A stretch of DNA of 20,081 nt. Source: a virus. This document shows, in pieces, positions 1 through 12,817 of this stretch. A program made the position numbers and the translations under genes. The stretch is from positions 1 to 20,081 of the IMG/VR virus record IMGVR_UViG_3300044273_000015; one strand, written 5' to 3'. A model generated the notes under the pieces. That model was not told the DNA's origin. It was given only the letters and a program-made list of their open reading frames with translations, and searched no databases. Positions within the stretch are counted from its first letter, which is position 1, and each line of letters begins with the position of its first letter.

Positions 1-1379
1 TCAACTACAACATACCGTATCGCATCAAGTAAATGCTCATAAAAACCATCCTTCTTATAATTACCATGACTGTCAGCTTGAAACTTCCCTAAAAACCCCT
101 CCAATGACCTATGAGCTTGATCACTAATTAATAGCTTCTTCTTCTCTAATAAATCTTTTATCATAGCTATGCTCTCAACTATTCTTACACGATTACCACG
201 AAAAATAAGACCATAATCCTTTTTTAATTTGGTAAACAAATCATACCCATCATATATCTCTCTATTTTTTCCTGCAACATCACCTACATAAGTTATCATC
301 TGCGGTCGCTTAATATTAAACTTCTTCCTAAACCGCTCTAACATATACTCAATAAATACCTTTAACGGTTGATTGTCTGAAATGTAATCGTCTAAAATCA
401 CAATCCGCCCTAAATAATCAACTCCTACCAATGCATACGCCGAATGCCTAATACCAAAATCAACCCCACAATAAAGCGTATAGTCAAATGTTATATCAAT
501 TAATCGATTGTCAATCGTAATAATATTCTGCTCGTCAAATACATCTTCAAATAAACCGCCACCATAATCAAATGCACCCCATTCACCATCAAGCATAATC
601 TTTCTATAACCTAATGGCTTCATCTCCATCTCAGTTATAAAAGAATGAGATACATTAAACCGCTTAGCAATCACTATATCACCTATCTCATAAAGCTTCT
701 CATACCTAATATTATTACTCACAAAAAATTCTCGACCATTGTAAATATACGGCGTCATTGCTTCCCAATCTTTCTTATTAACACGAACCACTAAATAATT
801 ATCATAAGTAGATGACCGAACAATATAAGTATCTTTACGATTTTTCTCAACAAACTCTTTATACACCCAATGCTCCTGCGAACATGGATTAAGTATCAAC
901 ATACCCTTCGAAAAATCATGCACCAACCTATAACGCTCACTTACCTCAACAAACGCTTCTTTACTTATCCTGTCAACCTCATCAATAATTATTACATTAA
1001 ACTCATAAGATAACACTGACTTATATTGAGCATTTTTTTCATTAAGAGACAAATAATAAATCTCTACATCCGTTGCCTCGTTCCTTATCACCTGTAAATT
1101 TAAATTTGTCGTAATCAGAGACTTAAGATACGGATTTTCTGCTAATAATCGCTCAAGACCCGCTACTAATGTGTTTCTTAAATCTCTTAAACTTTCACGA
1201 GCAATAAGAATACGAGACCCTCTATACTTCTCATTAGTCAATAACTCATATAAAATGAAAACAGCAAGCTGGGTCTTACCAGAACCCTTACCACCTACAG
1301 ATACAATCCACCGATAATCCGAATTAAAAAATAAATCCCAGATCTTTTCCTGAATTGATGAAAGCGTTAATTGCAACAT
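1..1379 (-). CDS. terL: Phage terminase large subunit (TerL), 3' end outside window
   Basis: ATP-driven DNA packaging motor and headful/site nuclease, acting at the portal of the procapsid. Translating the minus strand from the ATG at 1379 gives 459 open codons to the window edge. The ATPase domain shows Walker A GGKGSGKT (residues 29-36) and Walker B VIIIDE (129-134, with D133/E134). The RNase H-like nuclease domain shows GVDFG (D307), YVGDVAG (D367) and HLLDAIRY (D452), the three acidic residues expected for metal binding. The last motif normally lies within a few tens of residues of the C-terminus, so little is missing. No Shine-Dalgarno precedes the ATG, and a promoter -10 ends 10 bp upstream, so the mRNA is probably (nearly) leaderless. 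Divergent from the gene at 1434. The family call is certain; only the C-terminus is unknown. Confidence 0.95.
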   Translation of the reverse strand, partial: MLQLTLSSIQEKIWDLFFNSDYRWIVSVGGKGSGKTQLAVFILYELLTNEKYRGSRILIARESLRDLRNTLVAGLERLLAENPYLKSLITTNLNLQVIRNEATDVEIYYLSLNEKNAQYKSVLSYEFNVIIIDEVDRISKEAFVEVSERYRLVHDFSKGMLILNPCSQEHWVYKEFVEKNRKDTYIVRSSTYDNYLVVRVNKKDWEAMTPYIYNGREFFVSNNIRYEKLYEIGDIVIAKRFNVSHSFITEMEMKPLGYRKIMLDGEWGAFDYGGGLFEDVFDEQNIITIDNRLIDITFDYTLYCGVDFGIRHSAYALVGVDYLGRIVILDDYISDNQPLKVFIEYMLERFRKKFNIKRPQMITYVGDVAGKNREIYDGYDLFTKLKKDYGLIFRGNRVRIVESIAMIKDLLEKKKLLISDQAHRSLEGFLGKFQADSHGNYKKDGFYEHLLDAIRYVVV

Positions 1380-1389
1380 TCTGAAACAA

Positions 1390-1417
1390 ATTATAACTTG
1401 ACTTCTTGCAAAAACAA
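1390..1417 (-). promoter_or_regulatory. Promoter for terL (leaderless type)
   Basis: On the minus strand, TTGTTT (1417-1412) is followed after 16 bp by TATAAT (1395-1390), a perfect sigma70-type -10. Only 10 bp separate the -10 from the terL ATG (1379), so transcription should start about 3-5 nt before the start codon. No ribosome binding site is present. Confidence 0.55.
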
Positions 1418-1426
1418 GTATATTAT
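1398..1426 (+). promoter_or_regulatory. Promoter for the 1434 gene pair (leaderless type)
   Basis: TTGACT (1398-1403), 17-bp spacer, TATTAT (1421-1426). The ATG at 1434 is 8 nt downstream of the -10 end, so the predicted transcription start falls at or next to the start codon. It interleaves with the terL promoter on the opposite strand, so both promoters cannot be bound by polymerase at once. Confidence 0.5.
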
Positions 1427-1433
1427 TAAACCG

Positions 1434-1868
1434 ATGGATAAAAAAATCATACCAGCTACATCAATACCAGAATTAGTTGAAACATCCGATTTTCATAACA
1501 TCAACCAAAAGCGAGCCATCATTAAATATAAAAACATGGTCATCGGTATCAAAGAAGGCGATGTAATAGTTTTGCGGTCTGATAATGAAGATTATCTAAT
1601 AGCAATCGCCGAATTCATTCGAGACAATAAACATCGGATAGAAATACTACAAGACCCCCACAAACCTCTTTGCCTTTCATTCAAATTACGAGAAGGTAAT
1701 AAAACATACTACCTTGGCTTCGGTCGCCTAAATTTTTTCGAATATAATTATATCATCAACCTGTTAAGAAAATTTAAAATCATTCAAGATGAATTAACAC
1801 CATACGCTGATTTGTTAGTCGAAGATTATAAACAAAATGTCAAATTCTTTTATGAAGGAGTTGCATAA
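1434..1868 (+). CDS. Unknown 144-aa phage protein upstream of the ATP-grasp gene
   Basis: I do not recognise a family. The protein is soluble, mixed alpha/beta and rich in Lys, Ile and Asn, with no signal peptide, membrane segment or cysteine cluster. The frame is open back to a TTG at 1371, but that overlaps terL and lies upstream of the promoter, so the ATG at 1434 is preferred. No Shine-Dalgarno is present, and the start is placed exactly where a transcript from the 1398-1426 promoter would begin. Its stop overlaps the start of the next gene (TAATG, 1 nt), so the two are translationally coupled and probably act together. Confidence 0.75.
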   Translation: MDKKIIPATSIPELVETSDFHNINQKRAIIKYKNMVIGIKEGDVIVLRSDNEDYLIAIAEFIRDNKHRIEILQDPHKPLCLSFKLREGNKTYYLGFGRLNFFEYNYIINLLRKFKIIQDELTPYADLLVEDYKQNVKFFYEGVA

Positions 1869-3091
1869 TGGCTGTATTATGGTTAACAACTGGAATGGAT
1901 TGTGGATACATTGAAGAATTCGCTAAGCATGAAGAAGTCTATTTGTTTGCTGACTTTATTAGTGCATTCCCAGATATGGAAGACCTCGCATTCGGTAGAA
2001 ATATTCAAAATGTCCGAATACTTACTGACTTGCCACCAGAAGTTCTTAGTAAAATCGATAAAGTCATAACACTTGATTGCTATTTTGGCTTCCTTATTGA
2101 ACTTTTTAAACAATTAAATATCGATGTCTTTGGATCTGGATTAGAAGCTCGATTTGAAAATAATCGTTTATTCCAAAAACAATTAATGCCTAAAACCCCT
2201 CGCTATCGTGTTGTAAGCTTCGACAAACTAAGCTACCCAGCAATCACTAAAGTCGACCCAATCTATAGAAATTCCTTCGAAAGTGCAATCATCCGAAACC
2301 AATACGAACTCGAATTCTACAAACAAAAACTCATCCAAACAGCTGGACAATTTGCTAAAGACATTGAATATTACCAAGAAGAAATCCTAACCGATATCGA
2401 AATCGAATTTGGAATTGATTGTTTATGCCTCGGAAATGGTATTGAGCCACCCTTTACCATAGGAATTGAACAAAGCAAAAATACCTATATCGCTAAAATT
2501 ATCCGTAGAAAAGAAGATATCTTAATGAAACCTTGGGCTATCAATCTTAGAATGTGCGATGCTTTCCTGCAACAAACAAAATACATAGGCTTCTTCTCAA
2601 CTGAAGAAATCAAAGTAAAAGGAGAAACAGAACCCTACCTAATTGACATCTGCATGAGACTTGCCTTACCCTTAGGAACAGCCTACCTTAAATTCTACTC
2701 CAATATCTACCAAGCCATTCGAACTAATGTCCCTCTTATCCCAAAAGCTGAATACATCTATGTCATTCCAATATCCTTACCATTAGCTGAACAAACTTTC
2801 GTGCCAATCACTTTCAAAGATGAATATATCTTCGAACACTTCATCGCCTTGCAAACCTACTACAAACCTAAAACGCAAAAAGACCTCACATTCTACGCCA
2901 TCAAAGGTTATTCTACTATCGGATGTATCGTCCTATACTCAAATCATTTGGTAAACTACGAAGAACTCGAAGAACAAATCAAAAAAATCGAAGAAACAAT
3001 CATAGCCCCAGACCTAAAAATTGAATACAACACTTTAAAAGAAAACTACGAAAACTTCCAGAAAATGCTCGAAATTTTTAACTTAAATTGA
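1868..3091 (+). CDS. ATP-grasp-like ligase (PurD/carboxylate-amine ligase type)
   Basis: Probably joins a carboxylate to an amine or thiol using ATP; substrate unknown. An N-terminal preATP-grasp-like part leads to FGSGLEARFENNRLFQKQLM (residues 88-107), which parallels the segment before the ATP-grasp fold in PurD-type enzymes. K128 (ITKVD) is a candidate ATP-binding lysine, QEEIL (170-174) fits the hinge strand, and GFFSTEE (241-247) with PYLIDICMR (257-264) fits the metal-binding strand. There the usual E-x-N-x-R reads D260-x-C262-x-R264, an unusual substitution. The length (407 aa) suits the family. AAGGAG lies 8 nt before the ATG. The 3' end overlaps the convergent gene at 3083 by 9 bp. 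ATP-grasp enzymes are reported in phages, where peptide tagging or metabolite synthesis has been proposed; this role is inference. Confidence 0.6.
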   Translation: MAVLWLTTGMDCGYIEEFAKHEEVYLFADFISAFPDMEDLAFGRNIQNVRILTDLPPEVLSKIDKVITLDCYFGFLIELFKQLNIDVFGSGLEARFENNRLFQKQLMPKTPRYRVVSFDKLSYPAITKVDPIYRNSFESAIIRNQYELEFYKQKLIQTAGQFAKDIEYYQEEILTDIEIEFGIDCLCLGNGIEPPFTIGIEQSKNTYIAKIIRRKEDILMKPWAINLRMCDAFLQQTKYIGFFSTEEIKVKGETEPYLIDICMRLALPLGTAYLKFYSNIYQAIRTNVPLIPKAEYIYVIPISLPLAEQTFVPITFKDEYIFEHFIALQTYYKPKTQKDLTFYAIKGYSTIGCIVLYSNHLVNYEELEEQIKKIEETIIAPDLKIEYNTLKENYENFQKMLEIFNLN

Positions 3092-3391
3092 TGACCTAAC
3101 AAATGATACAAAACTTCCTACATCAACATTAGCATCAATCTCTATTTTAACAAATAAACCTACCAATTCGATAGTTTGCACACCTGATACATTATTAAGC
3201 GTTTGAGAATAAACTTGCAACCAATTTGCATTATCCGTTGACACTTTAATTGTTATAGTCGCTGACCCATTAATGTTGTAAATCAAATAACCATACTTAT
3301 AAACTTGCGTAGGAAGAACTTTATTAATCGCTCCACTATACGCTACATTGATTAAATTTGTCGCTTCCTTTAACGGTGCTATGATAAACAT
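3083..3391 (-). CDS. Small beta-rich protein, last gene of late operon
   Basis: No family recognised. The 102 residues alternate hydrophobic and Thr/Ser/Asn-rich stretches typical of a beta sandwich (for example NGSATITIKVSTDNANW and TIELVGLFVKIEIDANV), resembling small phage decoration, fibre or carbohydrate-binding domains. There is no signal peptide. The start codon directly follows the stop of the upstream gene (TAA then ATG), with GGAG about 12 nt upstream, so it is coupled to the lysis cassette. Its 3' end overlaps the convergent ATP-grasp gene by 9 bp with no terminator between. A virion surface role is inference. Confidence 0.7.
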   Translation of the reverse strand: MFIIAPLKEATNLINVAYSGAINKVLPTQVYKYGYLIYNINGSATITIKVSTDNANWLQVYSQTLNNVSGVQTIELVGLFVKIEIDANVDVGSFVSFVRSSI

Positions 3392-9503: not shown

Positions 9504-11204
9504 ATGATTTTATCAATCAACAATCAAATTTACAACTATAGTGACATCGAAAGTTATGTGTTAGGTCAATTGTTAGCTGTCGAAAGTGCTTACTCTCGCA
9601 GGCTCACATCACTCATCCGATACATGCAAGAATTAAACGGCGAAACTAATATCCCACCACCACCATATGAATGGCAATCCAAATTTGTCTCATCAATGTT
9701 TTACCAAAAAATCTTCTTCGCCTATTTCTACCTTCGCTCCTTCCTCGAAAAAGCATTCGAAAACCTTTTCACAATCGACACCGATAACGAACAACTCCAA
9801 ATCCTCCTAACCAAAATTCTCCAACATTACATCAAAACCCTTAACATCAAAGATGCCCTATCCAAAGTCCTCTTCTACAGCCTCCTCTCTGGCTACGGAT
9901 TTATCTACATCACATACAACGAAGACCTCAAACGCTTAGATTTACAAGTTGTTAATCCATTACACTCCAAAATCACACCCGACCTCAATTATGTTTGCAT
10001 CACCGAATACCTACCTATACCCGAAGCCATACGAAGATACAACCTATCATATAATCAAATCGAACCTTATGTCATTCCACAAGACGACCCAGAATTCTCA
10101 GTTTACACATATCTACAAAAAGTCTACAATGAAAAAATCGTCCGCATCGATAAATTCTACGGCATCGTTTTCCTACCAGATGACATCATAACTCCACACC
10201 TCTACACAATTCTCAATAAAACCAAACTCATTGACGCTGAAATAATGCCCGATAAAATCACCCCATTCGTTGTCGAATTCCTTTACGGCGTTAACACTCA
10301 AGTCTCCTATGCTGACCTCATCTACCCATATTATGTCCAAGATACAATTCTAACCCGTGCCATCCTTGATAGTGCATTAGTCAATCTAACACTTGGCTTC
10401 GAAGTCGATACATCAATCATTGAAGAAGACAGCCTCTCCGATGAATTGAAACCTTGGAAAATCTTTTACACCAGAGGTGGTGGAGAAATTCAGGCAATCC
10501 GACCAATCAAACTTGCGAACTTCGACCCGAATGCCTTACCAATCCGCAACCTCATCCAGAATGAAGCCACAAATGTCTCCGCAATCACAGAATTCATCAT
10601 GGGTCTCCCTTCCTCTCGCTCAAGAGTTACCGCTAAAGAAGTCTCCCTCAAAACCCAACAAACCCAAATGACCCTCGCCATCTTCATCGAACGCTTAGAA
10701 ACCGTCTTCATCTCCCAACTCCTTACCAAACTCCTCTACTACATCCTCAAATACGAAGCACCAAACCTACACCAACTCCTAACCCCCGAAGAATTAAACT
10801 TGCTCGCCACCATCACACCCGATGATGTCCTCTCACAAATCAAATTCAAAATCCGTGGCTTCACTAATGTCGTCCAAAAAAACGAACGCCTCGAAAAAAT
10901 CATGTCCCTCCTCGAACTATTCGGTCAACTAAACCTCCTACCCATCCTAAACATCGAAAAACTCATCCACGAAATACTTTACATCCTCGACCTCCCACCA
11001 GATATCATCGAAGTCAATAAACTCGCCCAACTAATACAAGCAATGCAACCCGCCCAACTCACACAACAACAAAAAATCAACGAACTCCTTGCCCTCATTA
11101 CCAAACTATCTAAACACCCATCCATGGAAAATATCGACATCCCAAAACTCCTCTCCGAATTAACTGGCTTACAAATACCCGAAAAACAACCAACCGAGGA
11201 TTAA
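9504..11204 (+). CDS. Phage portal protein
   Basis: Forms the dodecameric ring at one capsid vertex through which TerL pumps DNA and to which the tail attaches. At 566 aa the length fits podovirus-type portals. The most diagnostic stretch is residues 349-388: NLIQNEATNVSAITEFIMG, then SSRSRVTAKEVSLKTQQTQ, leading into the long helix of the stem/crown. The first 150 residues are helical, followed by a beta-rich wing. The C-terminus is Gln/Leu-rich and helical (515-560), like a barrel. AAGAGG lies 7 nt before the ATG. It is transcribed toward the control region, opposite to most left-arm genes and to terL. Codons are strikingly C-ending (ATC, CTC, AAC), unlike the minus-strand genes. Confidence 0.85.
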   Translation: MILSINNQIYNYSDIESYVLGQLLAVESAYSRRLTSLIRYMQELNGETNIPPPPYEWQSKFVSSMFYQKIFFAYFYLRSFLEKAFENLFTIDTDNEQLQILLTKILQHYIKTLNIKDALSKVLFYSLLSGYGFIYITYNEDLKRLDLQVVNPLHSKITPDLNYVCITEYLPIPEAIRRYNLSYNQIEPYVIPQDDPEFSVYTYLQKVYNEKIVRIDKFYGIVFLPDDIITPHLYTILNKTKLIDAEIMPDKITPFVVEFLYGVNTQVSYADLIYPYYVQDTILTRAILDSALVNLTLGFEVDTSIIEEDSLSDELKPWKIFYTRGGGEIQAIRPIKLANFDPNALPIRNLIQNEATNVSAITEFIMGLPSSRSRVTAKEVSLKTQQTQMTLAIFIERLETVFISQLLTKLLYYILKYEAPNLHQLLTPEELNLLATITPDDVLSQIKFKIRGFTNVVQKNERLEKIMSLLELFGQLNLLPILNIEKLIHEILYILDLPPDIIEVNKLAQLIQAMQPAQLTQQQKINELLALITKLSKHPSMENIDIPKLLSELTGLQIPEKQPTED

Positions 11205-11875: not shown

Positions 11876-12748
11876 TTACAACAGATACTTTTCCACTTTA
11901 TAATTCATCCACACACTTTCTATCCTCTTCGGTCTTTCACAATATTCTGATGATGGAACTGTAGCCCTCAATGACACCTCTTTATCTAACCTTACCCATC
12001 CATGCTCCTCAAGCCTTTTATATATCTCATTTTGATAACCCGACAATATCACTTTACTTTTTAATTTTAAACAAATATCTACCAACTCTTCATGCTCCTC
12101 ATTACTCATCTCATACACATATATTCCTTTACTGTTAGAACGAGTATCCAAAACATACGGCGGATCCATATATATTACAACATCATCCCCATCATACTTC
12201 AATACCACATCCTTCCAATCCCTATTCAATACTACAACACCTCTCAACCTTTTGTGTATAGCTAATAATCTATCCTTCACTCTCTGATAAATCATTGCTT
12301 TATTCTTTTTTTTCCATATCAAAAACTGCTCAGTTAAATTACCATTCAAAGCAAATCTATTAACATAGAAAAACGCTACCGCCTTATCTACTAAATCTAA
12401 CTCCTTACTCTTTAACTTCTCTAACATCTCATAATACAACTTCTCACTCGCACCTACAAACCATATCTTCTCTACAAACTTCTGAAATAACACCTCATCC
12501 GATAAAACCTTAAACAATGCATACACCCTGTCATCTATATCATTAATAACTTCAACATCCGACCTTAACTTGTTAAAAAATACCCACCCAGCACCAAAAA
12601 ACGGCTCCACATATATCTTATGCTTAGGTATAAGCTTCACTATCCAATCCGCTATATAAAACTTACCTCCAATCCACTGAAGAAGTGATTTTACTTCATT
12701 TACCTGACACCTCATAAAATCTTCCATCACTAAATCTTTCAAATCCAT
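11876..12748 (-). CDS. dam: D12-class DNA adenine N6-methyltransferase (Dam-like)
   Basis: Transfers a methyl group from S-adenosylmethionine to adenine N6 in a short DNA motif, probably to protect phage DNA from host restriction or to mark it. Motifs from the ATG at 12748: WIGGK (25-29, motif X), EPFFGAG (48-54, motif I, cofactor binding) and DPPY (195-198, motif IV, catalytic), in the order expected for the D12 class. About 290 aa is normal. The frame extends to a TTG at 12766 with a good GAGGAAG site, so a slightly longer product is possible. The target sequence cannot be read from the protein; GATC is the usual one for Dam. It heads a two-gene minus-strand operon next to the control region. 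Confidence 0.9.
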   Translation of the reverse strand: MDLKDLVMEDFMRCQVNEVKSLLQWIGGKFYIADWIVKLIPKHKIYVEPFFGAGWVFFNKLRSDVEVINDIDDRVYALFKVLSDEVLFQKFVEKIWFVGASEKLYYEMLEKLKSKELDLVDKAVAFFYVNRFALNGNLTEQFLIWKKKNKAMIYQRVKDRLLAIHKRLRGVVVLNRDWKDVVLKYDGDDVVIYMDPPYVLDTRSNSKGIYVYEMSNEEHEELVDICLKLKSKVILSGYQNEIYKRLEEHGWVRLDKEVSLRATVPSSEYCERPKRIESVWMNYKVEKYLL

Positions 12749-12817
12749 CTGCCCAACCCTTATCAAAATAACTTCCTCACTCTATAATCCTCCCATCCCC
12801 TCTCATACCACCACTCT

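Follow-up and report, generated by a model that had tools for sequence, protein, structure and literature searches.

The chemistry of ATP-grasp ligases runs through an acyl phosphate, which is formed from a carboxylate and then transferred to an amine. In GAR synthetase (PurD) the ATP-phosphate lysine of the linker is K105, and the motifs GPNTGGMG and GDPE, read here from E. coli PurD, are signatures of that family. The metal motif of the superfamily, E/D-x-N, varies on occasion, and in the R2K clade the lost linker lysine is compensated by a lysine or arginine in the loop that follows the lysine of strand 2; some R2K proteins are encoded by phages, and modification of host proteins has been proposed for them (PMC4431377). 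LUZ24-like phages encode an ATP-grasp enzyme of 291 aa in an early gene module with an amidoligase and an amidotransferase (PMC3890496), and in the RimABK complex the ATP-grasp ligase RimK is linked with a protease (PMC11957791).

The putative ligase gene, its 144-aa partner and their surroundings

We analysed a stretch of 20,081 nt (the window) from the IMG/VR virus record IMGVR_UViG_3300044273_000015, in which a first-pass annotation had proposed an ATP-grasp-like ligase. The open frame at 1868..3091 (plus strand) starts with ATG and encodes a putative PurD-like ATP-grasp ligase of 407 aa. A scan of IMG/VR found the gene in 18 loci of the window's lineage, with 73-98% identity where it was complete. 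Comparison of the window with 8 relatives gave a dN/dS of 0.04-0.11, indicating strong purifying selection, and the terminase large subunit (TerL) fell in the same range (0.04-0.12 where computable). The ligase is preceded by an ORF for a 144-aa protein, p144 (1434..1868, plus strand), whose stop codon overlaps the ligase ATG by 1 nt (TAATG). This order was seen in 16 of the 18 lineage loci, the other two (L014 and L019) being cut off at the contig end, and the spacing was identical in the relatives that span the junction, in agreement with the earlier claim that the two genes are coupled. In every lineage locus that extends far enough, TerL lies directly next to the pair or to the 102-aa gene beside it. 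Because the frame is conserved in the lineage, is under purifying selection and has kept its p144 and TerL surroundings, we regard it as a maintained gene and not a chance frame.

In the window, TerL lies on the minus strand at 3..1379 (PF04466, E 4.2e-16; phrog_2) and is separated from the divergent p144-ligase pair by a gap of 54 nt (1380..1433). The gap holds a weak promoter-like match at 1398-1426 (plus strand), with 15 matches in the region against 9.4 +/- 3.1 expected by chance. Downstream, a convergent 102-aa ORF on the minus strand (3083..3391) overlaps the 3' end of the ligase by 9 nt. TerL flanks the pair on one side and small tail/lysis-side genes on the other, and the pair is opposite in direction to both. 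A portal protein of the SU10 type follows at 9504..11204 on the plus strand (PF23899, E 3.5e-8; phrog_332). In the window's lineage the usual orientation of the pair is opposite to that of the structural genes around it, which we count against the reading favoured below. One lineage locus (L011:2990-6328) differs from the window: there the 102-aa gene has the pair on its other flank, and the pair shares the direction of TerL. Elsewhere in the window, at 11876-12766, a family match identifies an adenine-type DNA methyltransferase (phrog_56, E 2e-63).

The partner protein p144 had no match above chance in Pfam, PHROG or the PDB, and a candidate match, TusA (E 0.086), was below the Pfam cut-off and was rejected. 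A p144 profile gave 19 hits, all within the window's lineage, to which the protein is restricted. The earlier suggestion that it serves the ligase as substrate or carrier gained no support from these results, and the peptide tagging or metabolite ligation suggested for the ligase is a possible role.

Relatives of the ligase and the predicted fold

Single-sequence searches with the window protein against Pfam, PHROGs and the PDB, and by tblastn against named phages, returned nothing convincing, nor did an alignment of 14 close members used as the query. In Pfam the window protein matched SwrA at E 0.052, below the cut-off, and relatives did so at E down to 0.005; this match was taken as chance. 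More distant relatives were reached by scanning IMG/VR with a DNA pattern for Y-x-G-F-F-S-T-E, which matched 37 stretches, some of them from the window's own lineage. An HMM built from the close family picked up several ORFs in other phages, with E 1e-21 to 1e-15 across the greater part of each ORF, and further ORFs with weaker scores. Seven of these ORFs were made into a profile that found 91 relatives, and the 80 best loci were retained. Another scan, using the more divergent members, returned 48 loci, many of which lie on contigs already known. Two contigs (3300020229_000001 and 3300021079_000006) carry two ligase loci each, in different places (L106/L115 and L107/L113). Representatives longer than 330 aa and not more than 88% identical to an earlier sequence numbered 38, and the alignment used for profiles and modelling (A6) held 44 diverse sequences; the intein-bearing L085 is not part of A6 but does enter the count of neighbours. 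Residues were counted on 75 distinct sequences, 62 from other phages and 13 from the window's lineage; L085, four sequences of short length and all identical duplicates had been removed. A count of 111 made at the tree step includes differently trimmed copies of the same sequences and was not used.

The ligase family recurs in many uncultured phages, often near head genes, and is represented by no dedicated model in Pfam, PHROG or NCBIfam. No Pfam or PHROG match naming the family was found among the 44 members, and NCBIfam yielded only an echo of purD. In tblastn searches, five members (the window protein, L015, L098, L090 and L082) found nothing credible among 50,697 named phage records; the LUZ24-like enzyme is also a phage ATP-grasp protein, but none of these ligase queries had a credible match in the named-phage collection. 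One Aeromonas phage hit at E 8 fell in a short ORF (591 bases) and was taken as chance. Because the family is without a model in these three collections and is not found among named phages, it would have been missed so far. Open-licence PMC papers on phage ATP-grasp enzymes describe the R2K clade and LUZ24-type enzymes, but we found no description of this family in them. A scan of genome contigs for the ligase also found no relative; its peptide pattern was narrow and does not imply absence from bacteria. The same type of scan with a phage DNA polymerase, intended as a bridge to host genomes and likewise using a narrow peptide pattern, found no relative either. In a FastTree phylogeny the window's lineage formed a long, fully supported branch that was sister to the rest of the family, and monophyly of the family against PurD, PurK and AccC had a support of 0.81.

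Structure prediction with AF2 from close relatives only gave a pLDDT of 50.2, with N-terminal Rossmann-like matches only and nothing useful in BFVD, and this model was dropped. With the A6 alignment the window protein was modelled at pLDDT 92.0 and pTM 0.90, and all five models were above 91. The best 12 Foldseek matches were GAR synthetases (best E 1.2e-16), as were the best 13 matches by VIA-align, with the human enzyme 2qk4_A at Z 25.2 (3.7 A over 357 residues, 14% identity) and the Aquifex aeolicus enzyme 2yw2_A at Z 24.1 (3.9 A over 365 residues). PurK, PurT and biotin carboxylase share the same ATP-grasp body and came next, at Z about 20. All 50 Foldseek matches listed are ATP-grasp enzymes by their descriptions. 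In BFVD the good model had 29 matches at E <= 0.001, mostly partial (best TM 0.46/0.51), and no close full-length relative.

Profile comparisons agreed with the model. Nine of the 10 sequences found by the A6 profile in the PDB were GAR synthetases (best E 9e-8), and TIGR00877 (purD) matched 25 of the 44 members (best 3.8e-9), the window protein itself not being among them. Against E. coli proteins, hmmsearch with A6 placed PurD first (E 2.9e-5), followed by the C-terminal half of CarB (0.89), DdlB (2.1), PurK (8) and AccC (25), while hhalign also put PurD first (7.5e-6) with the C-terminal half of CarB close behind (E 1.4e-5 over 184 columns). A PurK profile matched 5 of the 44 members, at best with E 0.034. 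Four unrelated controls without an ATP-grasp fold were at chance, and E. coli RimK had no hmmsearch row and an hhalign probability of 0.1. PurD is therefore the closest of the families tested, and of the other families named in the first-pass annotation RimK gave nothing and CarB gave a partial hhalign match in its C-terminal half. The window protein is predicted to have the ATP-grasp fold that had been claimed for it, as seen in the confident model and in the profile comparison.

The likeness to PurD extends to the full-length fold, the order of the ATP-binding elements, an E/D-x-x-x-R-x3-P motif and the C-terminal domain. Identity between the ligase and solved GAR synthetases, however, was about 10-16%. 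The signatures GPNTGGMG and GDPE were absent from all 75 distinct sequences, so the ligase probably differs from PurD in its substrate site and is probably no purine enzyme. A true GAR synthetase, carried as an auxiliary metabolic gene that boosts purine synthesis, would fit PurD being the nearest family as well as the purD-type genes that three surveys report from uncultivated viruses (PMC11097641, PMC12043954, PMC11360552), but it is highly improbable given the missing signatures, the low identity and the position in the head region. If such surveys counted this family as purD, some of the viral 'purine' genes reported would not be purine genes.

Active-site residues across the family

Twelve of the residues considered were invariant in all 75 sequences: E97, R100, R134, E138, E180, G182, D184, E201, D260, R264, P268 and G352. 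Their placement against PurD is given here in order along the gene, with all coordinates on the plus strand. E97 and R100 (2156..2167) stand in the place of PurD E102 and K105, and the PurD linker lysine aligns with R100 and not with K104. K128 (2249..2251), in the place of PurD K145, would be the second ATP lysine; a lysine precedes R[GN]xxE[TS] in 75 of 75 sequences when a length difference of one residue is allowed, and its equivalence to K145 is read from neighbouring columns. The glycine-rich loop of PurD is replaced by a loop containing R134-x3-E138 (2267..2281). At 2378..2419 the hinge residue E171 (70 of 75) and the strand E180-x-G182-x-D184 follow, E171 and E180 taking the places of PurD E187 and E193, and E201 (2468..2470) corresponds to PurD D214. 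The segments that the first-pass annotation had placed in ATP-grasp order proved to be the conserved ones (E97/R100/K104, K128, E171 with E180, and G241 to P268).

Residues of the metal site were also conserved, in an altered form. A GFFSTE strand (2588..2608) ends in E247, which is Glu in 74 sequences and Asp in one, where PurD has Gly; E247 is likely the first metal ligand. Biotin carboxylase also has a Glu in this strand; like PurK and PurT, it has a lower Z than PurD and a weak profile match or none. The segment D260-x-C262-x-R264-x3-P268 (2645..2671) takes the place of the PurD motif E-x-N-x-R-x3-P, with D260, C262 and R264 at the positions of E286, N288 and R290. Position 262 is Cys in 44 sequences, Thr in 30 and Ala in 1. 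The altered motif D-x-C-x-R that had been noticed is thus present at 2645-2659 but is no peculiarity of the window protein, as D-x-[C/T]-x-R is found family-wide (74/75). The phage family therefore differs from PurD in the linker lysine (Arg), the glycine-rich loop (R-[GN]-x-x-E), the metal Asn (Cys or Thr) and the Glu at 247. Two basic ATP-phosphate residues, the first of them Arg instead of Lys, and acidic hinge/ribose residues are present, and Asn is found at the third position of the metal motif in 0 of 75. Because the fold shows membership and the motif is known to vary, the missing E/D-x-N does not remove the family from the ATP-grasp superfamily.

All 62 sequences from other phages have Lys at position 203. 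The window's lineage instead has S, D or N there and a Lys at 204; the window reads S-K at 203-204 where other members read K-D. The lineage also has Asn135 in place of Gly and one extra residue, E246. The change at position 203, together with the replacement of the metal Asn by Cys or Thr (one Ala) throughout, was counted against the reading favoured below.

The loss of the metal Asn, with the head-region position, would suit a catalytically dead ATP-grasp body that serves as a structural or regulatory virion protein. We consider this very unlikely, as E97, R100, R134, E138, E180, D260 and R264 are invariant and E247 nearly so, and as an intein interrupts the metal motif of one relative. Inteins usually sit in the active sites of working proteins. 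In this relative (L085:2-1711) the intein lies inside D-x-T-x-R, with D-M-T of the host protein before it and C-R after it. The intein has a LAGLIDADG-like region, named by eye.

The loop that follows K128 carries the invariant R134, reminiscent of the loop Lys/Arg of the R2K clade (CDC123, R2K.2 and R2K.3), which is likewise known from phages and in which the glycine loop is altered and a basic residue is conserved beyond the lysine of strand 2 (PMC4431377). By analogy with the proposal made there for phage R2K proteins, the ligase might modify a host protein to favour infection. This is quite unlikely: the linker basic residue that R2K has lost is kept as R100 in all 75 sequences alongside R134, the ligase has a full PurD-type C-terminal domain, no R2K family was among the 22 Pfam families matched by the 44 members at E up to 10, and the gene lies in the head region in several lineages.

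Gene context in other phages and the possible substrate

Neighbouring genes were annotated with Pfam and PHROGs for 10 proteins chosen from many. A P22-type portal lies upstream of the ligase in L171 (PF16510, E 2.6e-52), a capsid gene lies upstream in L179 (PF25209, E 3e-9), and in L181 an SU10 portal lies upstream on the other strand (PF23899, E 3.3e-21). In L138 and L180 the ligase stands beside replication-type genes (named by eye) and not beside recognised head genes, and many ligase neighbours had no family match, which was counted against the reading favoured below. Neighbour cluster 3 and the L136 and L131 neighbours were not counted as portals: hhalign gave no support for that identity, nor did Pfam/PHROGs for cluster 3 and L136. 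Cluster 4 of L153 looked like a terminase by motif only, with nothing in Pfam, PHROGs or the PDB.

Because the gene lies in the head/packaging region of several unrelated phages, a virion or assembly protein is the likeliest substrate. We tentatively favour, at a little under even confidence, an active ATP-grasp ligase that descends from PurD or shares an ancestor with it and acts on a phage-specific substrate, most likely such a protein. The fold, the PurD matches, the invariant catalytic-type residues, the intein in the motif, the dN/dS and the head-gene position were counted for this reading. In it, the protein retains a body of four domains, an ATP site and acidic residues for the metal (E247 and D260), while the signature motifs that PurD has for its own substrate are gone; it would convert a carboxylate to an acyl phosphate and pass this to an amine, presumably giving an amide. 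The enzymes closest in fold (PurD, PurK, PurT and L-amino acid ligases) act on small molecules, which would agree with a ligase for a cell-wall, signalling or DNA-base precursor. We hold this to be unlikely, since no recognised pathway enzyme is fixed beside the ligase in the window's lineage, the gene is near head genes in several lineages, and the open-licence PMC literature on phage ATP-grasp enzymes and hypermodified bases yielded no such ligase. If, as we favour, the ligase acts on a virion protein, it would represent a new type of covalent capsid maturation that is widespread in uncultured phages. The structure and the residue list make the substrate question testable with one expressed protein.

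A protein of about 130 aa with an HExxE motif, in some cases with a longer C-terminal part, was found in 18 of the 38 non-redundant ligase loci. In the redundant set, 44 of 108 loci with the ligase contained it, 39 of them within 300 nt. It occurs in no locus of the window's lineage, and p144 was rejected as its relative (hhalign probability 0.13). In L089:8346-9044 the HExxE protein carries an Erv1/Alr domain (PF04777, E 4.4e-8). It had no match in named phages by tblastn or among solved structures. In a more speculative and rather doubtful scheme, a phage-only ATP-grasp branch in the head-assembly region covalently tags a virion protein during maturation. Its partner in many relatives would be the metallopeptidase-like HExxE protein, which in some carries a fused Erv1-like thiol oxidase domain, and the two would form a write/trim system for capsid proteins. 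We found no description of such a system in open-licence PMC papers. The ligase-protease link of RimABK resembles this pairing by analogy only, as the phage family has no RimK profile match and the HExxE neighbour is absent from the window's lineage.

Other features were seen in these contigs. Another example of the HExxE protein lies at L180:5622-6020. On the contig that carries L068 and L069 (G003), residues of an ORF near one terminus recur in a helicase-like ORF at the opposite terminus, which suggests end redundancy or a circular genome. The same contig encodes a family-A DNA polymerase, PolA (L069:16162-17754), whose best PDB match, 8jrb_A (E 7.4e-51), was far above Taq and Klenow. As a lead only, this type of genome recalls the Aquificae viruses described in PMC7689252.
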